The notes beneath the pieces are model-generated. The model saw only the letters and a program-made list of their open reading frames with translations, made no database searches and was not told the origin of the DNA. A stretch of 64,000 nucleotides of DNA, taken from positions 1,922,001-1,986,000 of the forward strand of contig NZ_JARXOW010000001.1 in NCBI RefSeq assembly GCF_030182585.1, in the 5' to 3' direction. Every line of letters begins with the position of its first letter. Within the stretch, counting starts at the first letter, position 1. Positions 55,505 to 63,929 of this stretch are shown here, piece by piece. The position numbers were made by a program, and so were the translations under genes. Origin of the DNA: Pedobacter faecalis. Its GTDB lineage: Bacteria > Bacteroidota > Bacteroidia > Sphingobacteriales > Sphingobacteriaceae.

Positions 55505-56284
55505 TTGTCGGAGCAAACTACACCACAACTTCGTCTTAGGGTTTTTGCCGGCCCCAACGGCTCCGGTAAAAGCACTGTTATTAAAAGCATTCGTGAAACT
55601 GAGGTAGACGACAACATCAAGCTTGATGTCGGGGTTTACATTAATGCAGACGATATAGCAAAAGATTTAAGTGCTGGAGATTTTTCCTTTCAATCATACA
55701 GCGTGGAGTGTACTGCCACTGATCTCGTTAAATTTGGTGAGACATCCGGATTATTGTCCAACGAATTTCCGGCAGATCAATTTCGCAATTCTATTAAAAT
55801 TTCGGGACCGAAGCTTTCTTTAATCATACCAGAAAGCCTGGATCGCGTGGCGCAGATTATTGCTAGGTTTTTAAGGCATGCATTTATTAAAGCCAGGCGA
55901 CGATTTTCGTTTGAAACCGTGTTTTCTCACGAATCTAACCTAGATGACATGCGCCTAGCCGCTAAAGCAGGCTATAAGGTTTACCTTTATTTCGTTGGGA
56001 CCGAATCTCCTGAAATTAATAAGTTTCGCGTAGCACTGCGGGTCAAGGGAGGGGGACATCATGTTCCCGCTGATCGGATTGAAAAGCGATACGTGCGCTC
56101 TATGGAACTTCTTAAAGAAGCTGCAGAGATCGCTTACCAAGGATATTTCTTTGATAACTCTATCAATGATGAACCTTACCGGCTTGTAGGCCACTTCAAA
56201 GTGATAGCCGGAAAAAAGGAATGGGATGCTATTCCTGAAGATCAAGTTTCGATCTGGTTCAGAAAATACTATTCTAAAACATAA
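55505..56284 (+). CDS. zeta-toxin family kinase
   Basis: 259 aa from a TTG start at 55505; no ATG or GTG gives a full N-terminus after the upstream stop. P-loop GPNGSGKST at 16-24, then FSFETVFSHE (substrate-side glutamate) and KGGGHHVPADRIEKRYVRSM (arginine-rich region), as in zeta-like toxins that phosphorylate UDP-N-acetylglucosamine and block wall synthesis. Some relatives act on other substrates. The weak TTG start should keep toxin output below that of its partner. Confidence 0.85.
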   Translation: MSEQTTPQLRLRVFAGPNGSGKSTVIKSIRETEVDDNIKLDVGVYINADDIAKDLSAGDFSFQSYSVECTATDLVKFGETSGLLSNEFPADQFRNSIKISGPKLSLIIPESLDRVAQIIARFLRHAFIKARRRFSFETVFSHESNLDDMRLAAKAGYKVYLYFVGTESPEINKFRVALRVKGGGHHVPADRIEKRYVRSMELLKEAAEIAYQGYFFDNSINDEPYRLVGHFKVIAGKKEWDAIPEDQVSIWFRKYYSKT

Positions 56285-56341: not shown

Positions 56342-56383
56342 TTACTAACATTTTTAGCTAAATTGCAAAAAATTGTACCTTTG
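56342..56383 (+). promoter_or_regulatory. operator site and promoter of alkB copy 1
   Basis: TTACTAACATTTTTAGCTAA at 56342-56361 contains CTAA-N5-TTAG and covers the expected -33 position of a promoter whose -7 element is TACCTTTG (56376-56383). The ATG follows only 4 bp after the -7 element, so the mRNA may be leaderless. The same site recurs at 63278-63297 and 63318-63337. Confidence 0.6.
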
Positions 56384-56387
56384 TATC

Positions 56388-56990
56388 ATGAACCTTTTTG
56401 CAGAGACCGAACTGTTTGACGGAGGCATAGAGAAGTATACCGACTTCCAATTGCCGGATACCGAATTACGGCTATGGCAGCATTTTTTCGAAAAGCAGGA
56501 AGCAGATAAATATTACAATACCCTACTCAAAGAATCCCCCTGGCAGCAGCGCTCCAGGAAGATGTACGACAAGATCGTTGCCGATCCAAGACTGACCGCA
56601 TACTATGGAGGAGAAAACGGCCACCCCTGGACACCGATGTTACTGGAAATTAAAGCGACGATTGAAAAGATCACGGAGATCAGCTTTGACCGCGTACTGC
56701 TAAACCTCTATCGCGACGGCAAAGATTCCGTAGCCTGGCATAGCGACAACCTCCCGGCAGACGGCAAGCACCACCACATCGCTTCCGTAACCTTCGGCGA
56801 TACCAGAGTTTTCAAAGTGCGCCATAAATACAAAAAAGAGATCAGGCAGCTAGACATCCCGTTAACCCACGGAAGCTTGCTGCTCATGGGCGAAACCATG
56901 CAGGAATACTACGAACACCACGTCCCCAAAACAGCCAGAGCCATTGGGCCAAGGATTAATTTGACGTTTAGGATATCGGAGTCTATTTAA
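56388..56990 (+). CDS. AlkB-type alkylated DNA repair dioxygenase (copy 1)
   Basis: 200 aa from ATG 56388. 2OG-Fe(II) oxygenase: iron ligands in VAWHSDN (HxD) and EHHVPKTAR (distal His), and the 2-oxoglutarate arginines in PRINLTFR. AlkB-family enzymes oxidatively remove methyl groups from N1-methyladenine and N3-methylcytosine in DNA or RNA. Length is normal for the short bacterial type. A near-copy lies at 63364-63929, beyond the mutasome genes, in the same orientation. Confidence 0.92.
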   Translation: MNLFAETELFDGGIEKYTDFQLPDTELRLWQHFFEKQEADKYYNTLLKESPWQQRSRKMYDKIVADPRLTAYYGGENGHPWTPMLLEIKATIEKITEISFDRVLLNLYRDGKDSVAWHSDNLPADGKHHHIASVTFGDTRVFKVRHKYKKEIRQLDIPLTHGSLLLMGETMQEYYEHHVPKTARAIGPRINLTFRISESI

Positions 56991-57167
56991 ATATGTCAAG
57001 TATTATGTTCGCTTTACTTGACAATGCATCACAAGTTATTTATTACAAAAATCAACATGGGAACAATATAAGTTACTAATAAACAGATTTTTGCAAATAA
57101 AATGAGAGTCCTTTTTTGATATTTATTCTTGTTTTATTTTTTTCTTGCCAAATCTTAGGTTCCCCCA

Positions 57168-57524
57168 TTAGAAAGCTTCCCCAAAAGTCAACAGGTTATG
57201 ATCCGGGTCCAGCAAAGAAAACTCTACCTGCCCCCAGGGCTTACGCATCAGGGAACCATTCGGATGTATCGCTACGCCCCGATCTACCAACGCCTGATAA
57301 AACTCGCTGATACCCACACACCGGAGATACACCTGCCCGTAGTTTTCCGTTGGATTTAACTCCCTGAATAGAAAAAAATGAAGCTCGACCCCATCCCTGC
57401 CTACCATCAGGTACTCAGGATAGTCTGCGTCACCCAGAACCGCAAACCCAAGTTGATTTACATAATAATCCAATGTCGCAGCCTTGTCGCGCATCGGAAG
57501 TTTAGGGCAAACAGATTTTATCAT
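57168..57524 (-). CDS. VOC-family (glyoxalase/bleomycin-resistance fold) protein
   Basis: 118 aa, starting MIKSVCPKLPMRDKAATLDY with YYVNQLGFAVLG, then VELHFFLF and WGQVEFSLLDPDHNLLTF, the two-module VOC fold. Bleomycin-binding-protein-like members share this length. A role in drug or reactive-metabolite protection is possible but not shown. The 177 bp upstream of its stop (56991-57167) is AT-rich with no gene visible. Confidence 0.88.
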   Translation of the reverse strand: MIKSVCPKLPMRDKAATLDYYVNQLGFAVLGDADYPEYLMVGRDGVELHFFLFRELNPTENYGQVYLRCVGISEFYQALVDRGVAIHPNGSLMRKPWGQVEFSLLDPDHNLLTFGEAF

Positions 57525-57564
57525 AACAAAAGCTTACCCCCAATTTACTAATTTAGGTCAACAT

Positions 57565-57783
57565 ATGTTAAAAGTGAAGGACAAATCCATATCAAGTGTC
57601 TTCATTAATTTAGGGCAGAATGCCGACGCTATGGAGCTTTTATTTTTCTTCGACTTGGAGGACTTATCGCAGACCCAGTACATAGCAAAAAATATTCTGA
57701 AAGAGTGGGCACACGATTTCAAAGACAGGTATGGGTTCAATCATTTCATTTGTAGAGAGGAATTAGCAGGAGATATCACCTAA
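57565..57783 (+). CDS. possible small protein, 72 aa
   Basis: From ATG 57565 the frame encodes an acidic-hydrophobic peptide (NADAMELLFFFDLEDLSQTQ, NILKEWAHDFKDRYGFNHF). No family recognised. It starts 41 bp from the divergent VOC gene and its stop overlaps the dnaE2 stop by 8 bp. The amino-acid composition looks protein-like, but there is no other support. Confidence 0.4.
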   Translation: MLKVKDKSISSVFINLGQNADAMELLFFFDLEDLSQTQYIAKNILKEWAHDFKDRYGFNHFICREELAGDIT

Positions 57784-60700
57784 AATTCCTCCCCCCATGA
57801 AACGCCTCCTTCGTAACCTCTTCCCTCACCTGCGACCGCTTATTCTGACTCGGATAAGGCACCTCCTTCTCATCTGCTCTGGATAAAGTCAGCACAGGCA
57901 GATCATCCACCTCCCGTTGCACCAGCTTGCCGAGCATCTTCGTCAGATCCACACACTTGCTCACAATCACATGCACCACGCGGCCTTCCCGCTGCAAACG
58001 CCCTTCCACCATCAGCAGCCGCGCATGCAAGATCTCCTTTCGGTACGTCTCAAACAACTTCTCGAACACCACCAGGTTGGCATAGCCCGTTTCATCTTCA
58101 ATGGTAATAAAACACACCCCCCCGGCAGTTCCCGGCCGCTGGCGCACCAATACCAAGCCAGCCACCTTGACGAGCTGACCGGCGCTTGCATCGTTATTGA
58201 TCGCATGGCAGGAACGGATGTTCAGCATCTCCAGTTGCGGACGCACAAAGCTCACCGGGTGGGCCTTTAGCGACAAGCCCACACTCGCGTAATCCTGCAC
58301 CACGTGTTCCCCCTTAGTCATCAGGGGCAATTCGACCTGGGCTTCCAGCTGACTTTCCGAAACCTGCCCTTTAAAAATCTCCACCGGCATATCCGCCAGG
58401 GCCGTCACCTCCCAGAGGGCCTTACGCCTATCTAATCCTAAAGACCGAAAAGCATCGGCATCTGCCAGCACCTGCAAAGCCGTCAGGGAAACACCCGCAT
58501 CCCGCAGGGCTGTTACGGTCGCATAACGCGAACCACGGCCTCCGACCAAAGCTTCCACGTCTTCTTCCCGGATCCCCTTGATCTGCCGGAAACCCAGTCG
58601 CAGCGCGAAATACTTCCCCGACTGCTCCTCCAGCACATTATCCCAGAAAGAATAATTCACATCCACCTCCCTCACCTCTACCCCATGCTTGCGCGCATCG
58701 ATCACAATCTGCGCAGGCTGATAAAAACCCATGGGCATACTGTTCAGTAAAGCCCCGGCAAAGGCATCCGGATAATAATGCTTCACCCAGCAGGAAACAT
58801 ACACCAGCAGGGCAAAGCTCGCGGCGTGACTTTCCGGGAAGCCATAACTCCCGAATCCCTCCAGCTGCTTAAAGATCCGCTTGGCAAATTCTACGGTATA
58901 GCCTTTGGCCACCATGCCGCTGATCAGCTTCTCCTCCCACTGGTTCACCATCCCCTTAAACTTAAAGGTGGCCATGGAGCGCCTCAGCCCATCTGCCTCA
59001 GCAGGGGTAAAACCCGCCGCTACAATCGCGATCTTCATCGCCTGTTCCTGGAACAGCGGCACACCCATAGTCCTGCCCAGGATCTCTTCCAGTTCTTTAG
59101 AAGGATAAGTCACCGGCTCCTCGCCATTGCGCCTGCGCAGGTAGGGATGCACCATATCACCCTGGATCGGACCGGGACGCACAATCGCCACCTCGATCAC
59201 CAGATCATAAAAACAGGCAGGTTTCAGGCGGGGCAACATCTGCATCTGGGCGCGACTCTCAATCTGGAACACCCCCAGCGTATCGGCCAGCTGGATCATG
59301 CCATATACCGCATCGTCGTCCTGGGGGATGTTTGCGAGGGTTAGCTCGCGACCGTACTTCAGCTTCACCAGGTCAAAAGCCTTGCGGATACAGGTCAGCA
59401 TCCCCAAAGCCAGCACATCCACTTTCAGGAAGCCCAGGGCTTCAATATCATCCTTGTTCCATTCAATATTCGTCCGGTCGGCCATCCGCGCATTCAGGAT
59501 CGGGCAGAGGTCCGTCAGCTTGCCGTTGGTGACCACAAAGCCGCCGGTGTGCTGACCTAACTGCCTCGGGAAGCCCATCATCTGGGCGGTCAGCTCGAGC
59601 GTCTTTTTCAGGTGCGGATCATTCGGGTTCAGCCCCGATTCGGTCACCCGCTTGCCTTCAAACCATTCGTCGGTAAACTCCCATAGGGAAGAGGATAGCT
59701 TGTTCACCGTATCCAGCGATAAACCCATGGCCTTGCCTACATCCCGGATCGCGCCTTTCTGGTGCAGTTGGGTCACGGTGGCTACAATCGCTGCGCGGTC
59801 GCGACCATACTTATCATAGATGTACTGAATGATCTCCTCCCGGCGTTCATGCTCAAAGTCCACATCAATATCCGGGGGTTCATTCCTGGCCGATGAAATA
59901 AAGCGTTCAAAGAGCAGGTCAAACTTCATGGGGTTAACGGAAGTAATGCCCAGACAAAAACAGATGGCCGAGTTGGCTGCCGATCCCCTGCCCTGGCATA
60001 AAATCCCACGGTTCCGGGCTTCGCTGACAATATCCTCCACAAACAGAAAGTAGTTCGCATAATCCATCTTTCGCACAAATTCCATCTCATGGGCAATCAT
60101 GTTCACCACCTTTTCCGGCACCTCTTCCCCGTAAAAGGCATGGGCGCCCTTCCAGGTCAGATATTCCAGTTCTTCCAGGGGCGTCCTACCGCTCGCATTG
60201 ATCTCCGAAGGATACACATACCGCAGTTCATCCAGCGAAAAAGTGCAGGCAGAAACAATCTCCGAAACCGAGCGCAAAGCCTCGGGATATTTTCGGAACA
60301 AGCGATGCACTTCGGCGACCGGCTTCATATACCGCTCCGCATTGGCATGCAGGCGGAACCCGGCATCCTGGATCGTGCATTTCTCCCTCACGCAGGTCAG
60401 CACATCCTGCAATTCCCGCCGCGAGGGATCATGATAATACACATCACCCGTAGCCACAATAGGCAGGTGAAAACGTTCGGCCAGCTGCTGCGTGCGAAAG
60501 ATCAGCTTTTCATCATAACCGGTATACATCCGGGAAACGGAGAGATAGAGCCGGCCTTGCAATTTCCAGGCGTAGTCCCGCACCGCAGCAATAAAAGATT
60601 CCTCATATTCAAAACGCCTGTTCAACACCGAGGGCATCACCAAGATATACAGCATCCCCTCGGAATGGGCAAAAACATCGGCTCTCGACAAATGGCATTC

Positions 60701-61006
60701 CCCTTTCTCTGCCCGCATATTGCCCAGGGTCAGCAAGGCGGAAAGCCGGCCATAAGCAGCTTTATCGGTAGGATAAGCCAGTAAACTCGGCCCATCCAGC
60801 AAGTCCAGTCTGCAAGCCGGGATAAAGCCGATCCCTTTCTCCTTACAGGCCACATGCGCCCGCACGATGCCCGCCAGCGTATTCCGGTCGGTTACCGCGA
60901 TCTTTTTGTAGCCCAGTTCTGCCGCACGCGCCGCCAGCTCATGGGCATGGGAAGCCCCGCGCAAAAAACTAAAATTAGAGGTAACCTGCAATTCACTGTA
61001 CTCCAT
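57776..61006 (-). CDS. dnaE2: error-prone DNA polymerase DnaE2 (ImuC)
   Basis: 1076 aa from ATG 61006 (MEYSELQVTSNFSFLRGASH). PHP domain (about 1-280), polymerase palm with catalytic Asp residues in NEPPDIDVDFEHERRE, finger and HhH region, and C-terminal OB-fold (about 950-1030). It lacks the extended C-terminus of replicative DnaE. With ImuA and ImuB it performs mutagenic translesion synthesis after DNA damage. It starts 5 bp after the imuB stop; the three genes overlap or abut as one operon. Confidence 0.95.
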   Translation of the reverse strand: MEYSELQVTSNFSFLRGASHAHELAARAAELGYKKIAVTDRNTLAGIVRAHVACKEKGIGFIPACRLDLLDGPSLLAYPTDKAAYGRLSALLTLGNMRAEKGECHLSRADVFAHSEGMLYILVMPSVLNRRFEYEESFIAAVRDYAWKLQGRLYLSVSRMYTGYDEKLIFRTQQLAERFHLPIVATGDVYYHDPSRRELQDVLTCVREKCTIQDAGFRLHANAERYMKPVAEVHRLFRKYPEALRSVSEIVSACTFSLDELRYVYPSEINASGRTPLEELEYLTWKGAHAFYGEEVPEKVVNMIAHEMEFVRKMDYANYFLFVEDIVSEARNRGILCQGRGSAANSAICFCLGITSVNPMKFDLLFERFISSARNEPPDIDVDFEHERREEIIQYIYDKYGRDRAAIVATVTQLHQKGAIRDVGKAMGLSLDTVNKLSSSLWEFTDEWFEGKRVTESGLNPNDPHLKKTLELTAQMMGFPRQLGQHTGGFVVTNGKLTDLCPILNARMADRTNIEWNKDDIEALGFLKVDVLALGMLTCIRKAFDLVKLKYGRELTLANIPQDDDAVYGMIQLADTLGVFQIESRAQMQMLPRLKPACFYDLVIEVAIVRPGPIQGDMVHPYLRRRNGEEPVTYPSKELEEILGRTMGVPLFQEQAMKIAIVAAGFTPAEADGLRRSMATFKFKGMVNQWEEKLISGMVAKGYTVEFAKRIFKQLEGFGSYGFPESHAASFALLVYVSCWVKHYYPDAFAGALLNSMPMGFYQPAQIVIDARKHGVEVREVDVNYSFWDNVLEEQSGKYFALRLGFRQIKGIREEDVEALVGGRGSRYATVTALRDAGVSLTALQVLADADAFRSLGLDRRKALWEVTALADMPVEIFKGQVSESQLEAQVELPLMTKGEHVVQDYASVGLSLKAHPVSFVRPQLEMLNIRSCHAINNDASAGQLVKVAGLVLVRQRPGTAGGVCFITIEDETGYANLVVFEKLFETYRKEILHARLLMVEGRLQREGRVVHVIVSKCVDLTKMLGKLVQREVDDLPVLTLSRADEKEVPYPSQNKRSQVREEVTKEAFHGGRNFR

Positions 61007-61011
61007 ATCTC

Positions 61012-62520
61012 TCAGGCAAAAAATCCATGTAAAAACCACTGCCAGCCCTTGCGGTCGTTGTAGTGACCAGAGCGGTACATCCAGAAACGCTGACCTTTAT
61101 CATCCTCGATCCGGTAATAATCCCGGTGTTCGCCCTCATCCATCCACCATTCCCGTTCTATCCTTTCCGGCCCGTCGGCACGAATCACCTGGTGCTGTTT
61201 ACCCTGGTACACGAAAAACCTTGGCGGATGATCGGGAACAAGGGCCATCACCTCCACGGCTACCGGTCGCTCCAGCAGTTCCGTCGGACGGGGCTTGTCT
61301 ACACGCCAGTCGTCCAGGCGCACTTCCGTGACCGAGCGTGCATGGCCGATGCTCCGTTCCGGCCAGTACCTGGAGGCGGGGATATAGCGGTGCACGGCTC
61401 CGGGGCCAACCTTACCGGCTACCCGGTCGATGAGCTGCAACACACTTTTATTGTTCAGGCCGGGCTTCGAACTCCATAAGGCCTCCTGCGGCACTTCCAT
61501 TGCATCCACCTGGCTGGCTTCCAGCTCAAACAACTCTATGCCCAAACCCGGGCGGATCTGGTCAATCTTCAAGGCAAACAGCGTAAACAAATGACTCACA
61601 CTATGCGAGGCCGTGCTCGTCCCGATGGTCACCTGCACCAGCTTGCTGTCGATCCGGTAGCCCGACAAGGTCCCTTTACGCAAACCCTTGCCTTCCGCTT
61701 CCAGGCGTTTGCACAGGGCCGACAACAGTTCTTTGATGGCAAGCTCAATCCCTACGCGGGTGCGGATCGGTTCCAGGCAGGGCAAACGCTCCCGGAAAGC
61801 CACCGGCAGCTGCAAGGGCACCAGTACCTCGTCTTCCGTACCCAAAGCCTGGGCGATACGCAGCAGAAAGCCTTCGCCGAAACGTCTGCGCAGTACCGAA
61901 CGCGGCATCCCCAGAAAACTTTTGATCTGGTAAAATCCCAGCTTTTTCAGCTTAGCCAGCGTCGCCTCTTCCAAACGCAATGCCGATGGTGGCAGCGGAG
62001 AAATAGCCTCCACGATCCCGCCTTCAGGCACCAGCGGAGATACCTTGCCGAAACGCGATACCGCCCATGCCGCGCCAGGGGTGTCCGCAATTGCGCAGCG
62101 CACGGAATAGCCCTTAGACTTCAGCCTGGAAATAATCTCTTTCAGATAACCCCGCTCACCGCCCCACAAATGCGTACAGCCCGAAGCATCCACCAGTAAA
62201 CCATCTTTACCAAAGGCATCCACCGCCACAATGGGCGAATAGCGGATACACCACTCCCCCAAAGCCCGCAGCAACTTTTCCGCACGGCCAATCTTATCAT
62301 CCAGCACCTCAAGGCCGGGACAAATCGCCCTGGCATCTGCACCGCGCATGCCCAGGCTAACGCCCCGTTCGGCGGCCTGGGGACTAACCGCCGTTACCAG
62401 CATACGCCCGTGATCGGGCAATACAAAAACAAAAGGAACCTCCTTTAGCTCCGGTCTGCGGATCACCTGCCAGTCGCTCAGCAAATGATAAAACCATATG
62501 GAAACATAGCGGCGCCCCAT
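61012..62520 (-). CDS. imuB: ImuB, Y-family polymerase-like mutasome hub
   Basis: 502 aa from ATG 62520 (MGRRYVSIWFYHLLSDW). It keeps the Y-family polymerase layout but lacks catalytic acids: the first motif reads SIWFYHLLSDW instead of an Asp-containing motif, and the second reads VAVDAFGKDGLLVDASGC without the usual DE pair. That is typical of ImuB, which binds the beta clamp and recruits DnaE2. Its start overlaps the imuA stop. Confidence 0.92.
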   Translation of the reverse strand: MGRRYVSIWFYHLLSDWQVIRRPELKEVPFVFVLPDHGRMLVTAVSPQAAERGVSLGMRGADARAICPGLEVLDDKIGRAEKLLRALGEWCIRYSPIVAVDAFGKDGLLVDASGCTHLWGGERGYLKEIISRLKSKGYSVRCAIADTPGAAWAVSRFGKVSPLVPEGGIVEAISPLPPSALRLEEATLAKLKKLGFYQIKSFLGMPRSVLRRRFGEGFLLRIAQALGTEDEVLVPLQLPVAFRERLPCLEPIRTRVGIELAIKELLSALCKRLEAEGKGLRKGTLSGYRIDSKLVQVTIGTSTASHSVSHLFTLFALKIDQIRPGLGIELFELEASQVDAMEVPQEALWSSKPGLNNKSVLQLIDRVAGKVGPGAVHRYIPASRYWPERSIGHARSVTEVRLDDWRVDKPRPTELLERPVAVEVMALVPDHPPRFFVYQGKQHQVIRADGPERIEREWWMDEGEHRDYYRIEDDKGQRFWMYRSGHYNDRKGWQWFLHGFFA

Positions 62521-62522
62521 CA

Positions 62523-63257
62523 CTAACCAATATTTTCAAAGGGCAGGTATACCGGCGCTTCTGTGGCAGCGCGATCCAGCTGCACAAAACCATCCCCCTG
62601 CCATTCCAGTAACCATTTACCCGGACTCCCGCTGCGCACCTTCAGCAGCTCCACCTCCCAGCGCGGAAAACCAACACCCGGCATCCCGCTCTCCTCTATG
62701 GAAGGCACCGGAACAATTCGCCAGCGCGCGGTAGACACCGTACTCGCCATCCGCTTCAAGTCCTTACGGATCACCAGGCCCGGAATCCCGTTCTTCTCCA
62801 CCGCCAGTTGCAGGCGCCTGGAATCGATGAGCGACAAACCATCCACTTCAGCAACCACCGCGGCCAGACCATCGCAACGCAAAGCCTCCTCCATAATCCA
62901 CAGCACCTCCTTCTCCGACTTTACATCTATGAAGATGATGCGGTCGGGCTCCAGACCAAAAGATGCCAACGCCGCCGGAAACAATCTTCGCCGCGTACCG
63001 ATCCAGACACAGCCCGCCCCGTCAGTCATCAAACTGCCAAGAAGCCCTGCGATAAAGCCGTCCGCAGCGGCAGCTTCGGCGGGGGTGTGACAAACAAACT
63101 CATGAATCGCCTGGCGCGGAAAAACCCCATAAGGAAAAGCCTGCTCAATCTCCCCAAGCCCCACCCGCTCGGCCTTACCCGAAGCCTGTGGCTTGAAGCC
63201 CTGCAGGAGGAGGAGATCCTGCTGAAGCTTGAGAAATATTTCCTTTTTTGAATCCAT
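62523..63257 (-). CDS. imuA: ImuA, RecA-like mutasome protein
   Basis: 244 aa from ATG 63257 (MDSKKEIFLKLQQDLL). It resembles the RecA core without a clear Walker A motif (HEFVCHTPAEAAAADGFIAG, CVWIGTRRRLFPAAL, SLIDSRRLQLAVEKNGIPGL), as in ImuA proteins. It supports the ImuB-DnaE2 pathway. It is first in the imuA-imuB-dnaE2 operon and has an operator-like site at 63278-63297. Confidence 0.9.
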   Translation of the reverse strand: MDSKKEIFLKLQQDLLLLQGFKPQASGKAERVGLGEIEQAFPYGVFPRQAIHEFVCHTPAEAAAADGFIAGLLGSLMTDGAGCVWIGTRRRLFPAALASFGLEPDRIIFIDVKSEKEVLWIMEEALRCDGLAAVVAEVDGLSLIDSRRLQLAVEKNGIPGLVIRKDLKRMASTVSTARWRIVPVPSIEESGMPGVGFPRWEVELLKVRSGSPGKWLLEWQGDGFVQLDRAATEAPVYLPFENIG

Positions 63258-63266
63258 CACCAATTA

Positions 63267-63305
63267 CACAACAAAGTAAAGCTAAAATTGTTAGTAAATT
63301 ACAAA
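63267..63305 (-). promoter_or_regulatory. operator site and promoter of imuA
   Basis: The site on the minus strand reads TTACTAACAATTTTAGCTTT (63297-63278) and holds CTAA-N5-TTAG. It lies between a TTTG (about 63305-63302) and a TTTG-ending -7-like element TTACTTTG (about 63279-63272). A repressor bound here would block the promoter. It differs from the alkB copy-1 site at only two or three positions. Confidence 0.6.
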
Positions 63306-63317
63306 ATGTTGAAAACT

Positions 63318-63359
63318 ATACTAATATTTTTAGTTATTCCACAAGAATTGATATCTTTG
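63318..63359 (+). promoter_or_regulatory. operator site and promoter of alkB copy 2
   Basis: ATACTAATATTTTTAGTTAT (63318-63337) with CTAA-N5-TTAG, then a -7 element TATCTTTG (63352-63359). The ATG is 4 bp further on, as at copy 1. The site sits over the -33 position. Confidence 0.6.
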
Positions 63360-63363
63360 TATT

Positions 63364-63929
63364 ATGAACCTTTTAGCGGAGACCTATTTAAACAATCCCC
63401 CTGGCAGCAACGCTCCAGGAAGATGTACGACAAGATCGTTGCCGATCCAAGGCTCACCGCCTACTATGGCGGAGAAAACGGCCACCCCTGGACACCGATG
63501 TTACTGGAAATTAAAGCAACCATTGAAGAAATCACGGAGATCAGCTTTGACCGCGTACTGTTAAACTTCTATCGCGACGGCAAAGATTCCGTAGCCTGGC
63601 ATAGCGACAACTTGCCGGCAGACGGCAAGCACCACCACATCGCTTCCGTAACCTTTGGCGATACCAGGATCTTCAAAGTCCGCCATAAATACAATAAAGA
63701 GATCAAGCAGCTAGACATTCCATTAACCCACGGAAGCTTGCTGCTTATGGGCGAAACCATGCAGGAACACTACGAACACCACGTCCCAAAAACAGCCAGA
63801 GCCATTGGCCCAAGGATTAATTTGACGTTTAGGATATCGGAATCGTCTAAGCCGGTATATGAGGCGTTCCTGCGGCGACTTCAGTTGGTTGATAGTCAAT
63901 TTCGCAGGTTACCGCATGTCGGGAGCTAG
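63364..63929 (+). pseudogene. second alkB copy with 5' deletion and frameshift
   Basis: The ATG and first codons (MNLLAET) match copy 1 after one or two changes. About 115 bp corresponding to 56409-56523 are then missing, leaving the rest out of frame with that ATG. The remaining frame is intact from PWQQRSRKMYDKIV to the end, keeps the iron and 2-oxoglutarate residues, and is about 20 codons longer at the C-terminus. An internal ATG at 63423 could give a 168-aa protein; TTG 63288 or ATG 63306 could give a fused N-terminus if transcription began further upstream. Confidence 0.75.

Follow-up and report, generated by a model that had tools for sequence, protein, structure and literature searches.

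Predicted operators of the Bacteroidota non-canonical LexA precede alkB as well as imuA-imuB-dnaE2 in Pedobacter faecalis and its close relatives

Two operators have been published for the non-canonical LexA of Bacteroidetes, an S24 repressor resembling phage CI, and one of them is the palindrome CTAA-N5-TTAG (Sanchez-Osuna et al., 2021; PMC8565304). According to that study, the P. actiniarum repressor binds the palindrome in gel shifts, substitutions in the arms abolish binding (its section 15), and the targets are induced by mitomycin C. The same paper lists imuA-imuB-dnaE2 as a target in several species and places the Sphingobacteriaceae among the families with large regulons under CTAA-N5-TTAG (PMC8565304). 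Here, we analyzed a 64,000-nucleotide stretch of the Sphingobacteriaceae member Pedobacter faecalis (NCBI RefSeq assembly GCF_030182585.1, contig NZ_JARXOW010000001.1, positions 1,922,001 to 1,986,000; hereafter the window), in which this palindrome precedes an intact alkB gene, a broken second copy of alkB, and imuA. With a probability that we put at about 0.92, these three sites serve as operators for the Bacteroidota non-canonical LexA, i.e., an S24-family repressor with a phage CI-type helix-turn-helix (HTH), which would place alkB and imuA under common control.

All three sites were present at the positions and on the strands given in an earlier, sequence-only reading of the window. The operator before alkB copy 1 lies on the plus strand at 56342..56361 (core 56345-56357), with the ATG 43 bp further on. 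The other two occupy the divergent promoter between imuA and alkB copy 2, one before imuA on the minus strand at 63279..63298 (core 63282-63294; start codon 37 bp on) and the second before alkB copy 2 on the plus strand at 63318..63337 (core 63321-63333). Using a symmetric 21-mer matrix built from 59 distinct sites upstream of imuA in other genomes, with the Pedobacter faecalis genome itself excluded, the window sites took ranks 1 to 3, scoring 27.6 bits (alkB copy 2), 23.9 bits (imuA) and 23.6 bits (alkB copy 1), while the next place in the 64-kb window reached 10.2 bits. First-order Markov windows of the same composition contained a mean of 0.003 places at the lowest site score, and none of 300 contained three. 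The sequence TACTAAYAWTTTTAG occurs without mismatch at four places in the genome, namely the three window sites and one before an S24 repressor gene.

The sequence-only reading had proposed a damage-responsive S24- or XRE-like repressor as the protein recognizing these sites and had noted that no such gene lies in the window. Both points were borne out, in that the site is the published non-canonical LexA operator and a gene of this type, whose promoter contains the site, was found elsewhere in the genome (our contig C1, 197999-198772). It encodes a protein of 258 amino acids (aa) with HTH_3 (PF01381, 53.4 bits) and Peptidase_S24 (PF00717, 30.8 bits) domains, both above the cut-off. The winged-helix domain of canonical LexA, PF01726, was not among the five family matches of the repressor, which are of HTH_3 type. 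Read by eye, the protein contains an Ala-Gly pair in KASAGYL together with the serine of a GDSM motif and the lysine of VYKRAG, which are candidates for the cleavage site and the Ser-Lys dyad of these LexA proteins. Two operators stand in its promoter, 44 and 110 bp before the start. Repressor matches at E 1e-20 or better were obtained in 114 of 121 genomes sampled from the family, and an operator was present within 300 bp of the repressor gene at 30 of the 30 family loci fetched (own genome included in both counts).

Among the same 121 genomes, 63 had an imuA match. The 74 imuA rows include our own genome and a few genes seen in two loci, and 67 of them had an exact site within 400 bp; the motif thus recurs upstream of imuA in relatives, as the sequence-only reading had asked to be checked. 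The seven rows lacking the site correspond to six genes. For one of them (genome G089, two rows), a small gene intervenes between the site and imuA. The other five (G063, G073, G090, G107 and G112) each have a divergently oriented S24 paralog as neighbor, which shares 35-40% identity with the repressor of the window genome and in G090 carries an internal stop, and display by eye TYAY-N5-RTRA palindromes. These resemble TTAC-AAATT-GTAA, the operator reported for a paralogous S24 regulator of E. anophelis, which differs from the operator in the window (PMC8565304, section 16). The imuA cassettes without CTAA-N5-TTAG at loci L091, L092, L192, L201, L202 and L243 have an adjoining divergent S24 gene and, by eye, a common TYAY-N5-RTRA palindrome; at these six loci, the repressor seems to have diverged along with its operator. 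Three of them (L091, L092 and L243) have alkB in fourth place in the operon.

Genes encoding AlkB of the window type (>60% identity) were present in 10 of 145 genomes of the genus, own included. In the nine other congener genomes, all 11 such genes had the exact site, at -38 to -45. Six loci from named organisms at the same identity level, one from Pedobacter and five of Chitinophagales type, comprised five with the exact site, at -42 to -45, and one (L231) with a one-mismatch site at -34. The Pedobacter polysacchareus locus (L230) and the congener genome G553 (L371) have the same alkB promoter, so that we counted 16 distinct genes in organisms other than our own, of which 15 had the site without mismatch, 38-45 bp upstream of the called start, and the remaining one had a site with one mismatch. 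The motif was therefore found upstream of alkB in relatives, where the sequence-only reading had advised looking for it. As a background, an exact site lay within 400 bp of three of 339 open reading frames (ORFs).

We next compared the alkB promoters with one another. Across the 11 congener promoters and that of window copy 2, a complete set with none omitted, mean pairwise identity was 0.99 over the 13-bp operator, against 0.41 for the 30 bp on its upstream side and 0.44 on the downstream side. A wider set of 17 promoters yielded 0.73 in the spacer, 0.34 upstream and 0.41 downstream; these had been picked for exact sites, such that their arms are identical by construction. Given that the sites are conserved and that the repressor gene carries sites of its own, alkB is, on sequence grounds, best described as a conserved SOS gene of the window-type lineage and not as an accident of duplication.

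The consensus of the Bacteroidota -7 element is TAnnTTTG. In the promoter of alkB copy 1, the operator occupies the expected position of the -33 element, and the -7-like element TACCTTTG (56376..56383, plus strand) fits this consensus; the assignment to the promoter class is by inference from the sequence read. The corresponding putative element of alkB copy 2 is TATCTTTG (63352..63359, plus strand). In both copies the -7-like box ends 4 bp before the alkB ATG (56376-56390 and 63352-63366), and it is similarly close in several congeners. Because of this proximity, the alkB mRNA may be leaderless.

The palindrome was also inspected elsewhere in the genome. In addition to the three window cores, we viewed 21 others in 18 stretches, mostly picked for AT-rich spacers, of 45 cores in total. 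Of the 21, twelve stand before the repressor gene, recA, umuD, repair-like, DinB-superfamily or methylase genes. Two sites stand before recA, as before the S24 repressor gene, these being two of the gene classes at which the sequence-only reading had suggested searching. A PA0069-type radical SAM gene likewise has two, and umuD, a radical SAM gene linked to uracil-DNA glycosylase (UDG; rSAM_link_UDG) and an RNase_T/GIY-YIG exonuclease gene have one each.

Sites of this kind were also recorded before other genes. The gene for a C5 cytosine DNA methylase (PF00145, 267.6 bits; L322 2028-3412; C2 ~400.1-401.5 kb) has a 21-bp operator, TTTACTAATATTATTAGTAAA, palindromic about its centre base, ~106 bp before its start, possibly reflecting an SOS-controlled methylase or restriction system. 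Two divergent genes of the DinB superfamily (PF05163 and PF12867, not the polymerase) share a promoter with two operators (L318 1431-2616; C1 ~743.2-744.4 kb). A strong operator-like sequence, AAAACTAATATTTTTAGCATT, lies 25 bp before a gene whose large product, at least 650 aa long, looks like an exported protein (L323 2021-4001; C1 ~1180.8 kb) and had no Pfam match.

The genes behind the window operators were characterized by profile searches. The intact alkB copy 1 (56388..56990, plus strand) encodes 200 aa and matches PF13532 (2OG-FeII_Oxy_2) with 98.6 bits, covering profile positions 2-194; its best matches of solved structure are ALKBH3, followed by ALKBH2. In an alignment of 19 sequences H118, D120, R189 and R195 are invariant and H177 nearly so, and these are presumably the metal and 2-oxoglutarate residues of AlkB. 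Downstream, on the minus strand, the operon comprises imuA as its first gene (62523..63257), imuB, encoding a Y-family polymerase-like protein (61012..62523; PF00817, IMS), and dnaE2/imuC, encoding an error-prone DNA polymerase (57776..61006; NF004225, 1350 bits, cut-off 939). The NCBIfam ImuA model scored 57 bits, below its cut-off of 150, and the identity of imuA consequently rests on operon context too. The order imuA-imuB-dnaE2, with the error-prone polymerase present, is that of an ImuA-ImuB-DnaE2 mutasome cassette. A 259-aa ORF upstream of alkB copy 1 (55505-56284) matched the zeta-toxin family weakly (PF06414, 23.6 bits, cut-off 22.3).

The sequence-only reading had counted alkB copy 2 (63364..63929, plus strand) as a second gene copy. 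This must be corrected, since a 115-bp deletion near the 5' end, together with a frameshift, has removed the N-terminal part of the domain; the frame from the native ATG (63364) is lost, and the open frame that persists matches PF13532 only at positions 66-194. The two copies in the window account for all AlkB matches in the genome. In another genome of the same species (G521), the single alkB has no internal stop and is oriented divergently to imuA, and its promoter shares 99% identity with the one of window copy 2. On this basis, copy 2 likely occupies the ancestral place; the intact copy 1 lies on the opposite side of the operon, downstream of dnaE2. Compared with the G521 locus (L378), either window copy is 91-93% identical in DNA (7-9% different), while the adjoining imuA-imuB-dnaE2 stretch is 97% identical (3% different), a discrepancy that suggests recombination or replacement at alkB.

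Might the alkB sites then be passive leftovers, acquired when alkB was copied beside imuA together with part of the divergent promoter, and with no role of their own? The promoter identity of copy 2 with G521, and the divergent arrangement of alkB and imuA in G521 and at five other congener loci (in G587, G592, G613 and, twice, G614), would fit such a history. However, each of these six loci has two sites, one near each gene. Furthermore, five of the 11 congener alkB genes (L369, L370, L371, L374 and L375) stand alone, with their own operator at the same distance and no imuA match in 8-10 kb on each side. The named loci have alkB alone too, and four of the six are without an imuA match in 8 kb on each side, three of these having exact sites and L231 the one-mismatch site; the sites at L233 and L235 are also exact, but only 1359 and 209 bp of upstream sequence were available there, which could hide an imuA. 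Together with the retention of the operator amid diverged flanks, these data make the passive origin very unlikely. To a different regulator, e.g., an alkylation-specific, Ada-like protein that uses the same sequence by chance, we give even less credence. Such control is reported for E. coli alkB, which is under Ada (PMC1839093), but in Pedobacter faecalis the S24 repressor gene, recA, umuD and imuA all have the site upstream as well, and it is this site that the P. actiniarum S24 repressor bound in gel shifts with arm mutations (PMC8565304).

Coincidence in AT-rich promoter sequence draws on the behavior of the bare core. CTAA-N5-TTAG occurs three times in the window against 0.89 expected, a number reached by six of 100 shuffles; the whole 3.63-Mb genome contains 45 copies, compared with 54 of a reversed control. 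The count of bare cores therefore proves nothing alone, and we rejected it as evidence. The concern, raised in the sequence-only reading, that the motif might be no more frequent than by chance thus applies to the bare core but not to the extended site, as judged by the matrix against Markov windows. With the window sites at the top of the matrix ranking, a 13-bit gap below them, and the site conserved in other species before both imuA and alkB, coincidence is scarcely credible.

Operator control of alkB by the non-canonical LexA must nevertheless be weighed against several adverse observations, of which the lack of genome-wide excess of the bare core is one. Among the cores viewed elsewhere in the genome, nine of 21 fall within genes or stand ahead of genes that have no obvious connection with DNA damage. 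No umuC-sized frame was found beside umuD (L327 2046-5501; C2 ~410.0-413.5 kb), and this umuD operon is consequently not of the textbook type. The remaining points concern alkB beyond the close group. An alkB match was present in 90 of the 121 family-sample genomes, and the AlkB tree separated, with a support of 100, a window-type clade A (38 rows) from a clade B (71 rows). An automatic operon-aware walk found the site in 15 of 38 clade A rows vs. two of 71 in clade B (Fisher 1.2e-6), although the former count includes the two window copies (13 of 36 without them) and the Fisher test ignores relatedness; one of the two clade B rows represents a site shared with imuA. The walk found no site for the other 23 clade A rows, including the alkB of G090 (L031), which at ~54% is nearest to the window pair in the tree and is without a site. 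More distant sites were missed by the walk at L041 (-359) and, with a leader frame between, at L051 (-370) and L053 (-356). Amongst the best 80 named loci, an exact site within 400 bp was present in eight, i.e., the five close ones and three from Mucilaginibacter beside imuA, and 72 had none. A class-level search added seven alkB loci of other families (46-53% identity), all of them without the site. Accordingly, we rejected the broader proposition that alkB in general is an SOS gene of the family.

We also considered GGA-N5-TCC as an operator of alkB in Flavobacterium. It was present within 400 bp at one (L250) of 17 loci (L236-L252), 16 of them labelled Flavobacterium and several with an operon start further than 400 bp from alkB, and it stood beside a repressor-like gene only at L237 among 12 loci viewed.

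By the mechanism that we propose, the repressor of an undamaged cell would sit on CTAA-N5-TTAG over the -33 element or spacer region and block transcription. Upon damage, RecA filaments would trigger its self-cleavage, whereupon alkB and imuA-imuB-dnaE2 would be transcribed along with recA, umuD and the gene of the repressor. The sites, their conservation and the repressor gene with its own sites were computed here, and binding and mitomycin C induction come from other species; it is by this analogy that we infer binding, cleavage and induction in Pedobacter faecalis, and the obedience of alkB to the repressor.

The surroundings of alkB vary in the wider sample. A single site is shared by divergent alkB and imuA at L045, L054 and L101. 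alkB is the fourth gene after imuA-imuB-dnaE2 at L187, as at L091, L092 and the Flavobacterium beibuense locus L243; at L212 it follows dnaE2 alone, and at L225 it adjoins a umuDC pair with confirmed UmuC and UmuD-type domains. At L272, L273, L222, L170 and L094 (and, by frame lengths only, L111), the operator is followed by an ORF of 86-102 aa upstream of alkB, with GRILFD...WIYDG or similar, and in some loci a 164-aa ORF also stands directly before alkB. With these leader ORFs between operator and alkB, alkB itself comes second or third in a small operon. Neither of the two small leader ORFs scanned matched a Pfam family.

A wider idea, which we advance tentatively and at somewhat less than even odds, is that a distinct Bacteroidota subclade of AlkB is a standing partner of ImuABC that has repeatedly been wired to the SOS response and clears alkylated bases from single-stranded templates ahead of the error-prone polymerase. 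The routes of wiring would be an operator of its own, a divergent promoter shared with imuA, a fourth place in imuA-imuB-dnaE2, and a position beside umuDC. At least two lineages of repressor and operator would have taken part, i.e., CTAA-N5-TTAG and the diverged paralog with TYAY-N5-RTRA.

The locus agrees with the described Bacteroidetes non-canonical LexA regulon in its operator, in the HTH_3 and S24 domains of the repressor and in the operator before the repressor gene, and the two share imuA-imuB-dnaE2, recA, umuD, splB-like and UDG-linked radical SAM genes and exonuclease genes as targets (PMC8565304). They differ in alkB, the main text of that paper containing none of alkB, COG3145, "alkylat-", oxygenase or demethylase. 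A literature search over titles and abstract openings returned no report of alkB in a Bacteroidota SOS regulon, although the supplements of PMC8565304 may list it. Operator, repressor type and imuA control were thus already known, and what is new is the conserved operator of alkB in the close lineage, which makes alkB a new predicted member of a known regulon. In Actinobacteria, alkB and dnaE2-type mutasome genes are reported to respond jointly to SOS induction (Streptomyces venezuelae, PMC9380542; M. tuberculosis, PMC8151990). That response belongs to another phylum and involves canonical LexA/RecA and a different operator, and the SOS wiring of alkB would have arisen separately in Bacteroidota and Actinobacteria.

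Taken together, the site before alkB would couple the repair of alkylated DNA to mutagenic DNA synthesis. The Bacteroidetes SOS regulon described in 2021 would hereby gain an enzyme that directly reverses alkylation damage, in parallel with Actinobacteria, and the pairing of AlkB with error-prone synthesis would provide a testable case of an association selected more than once.

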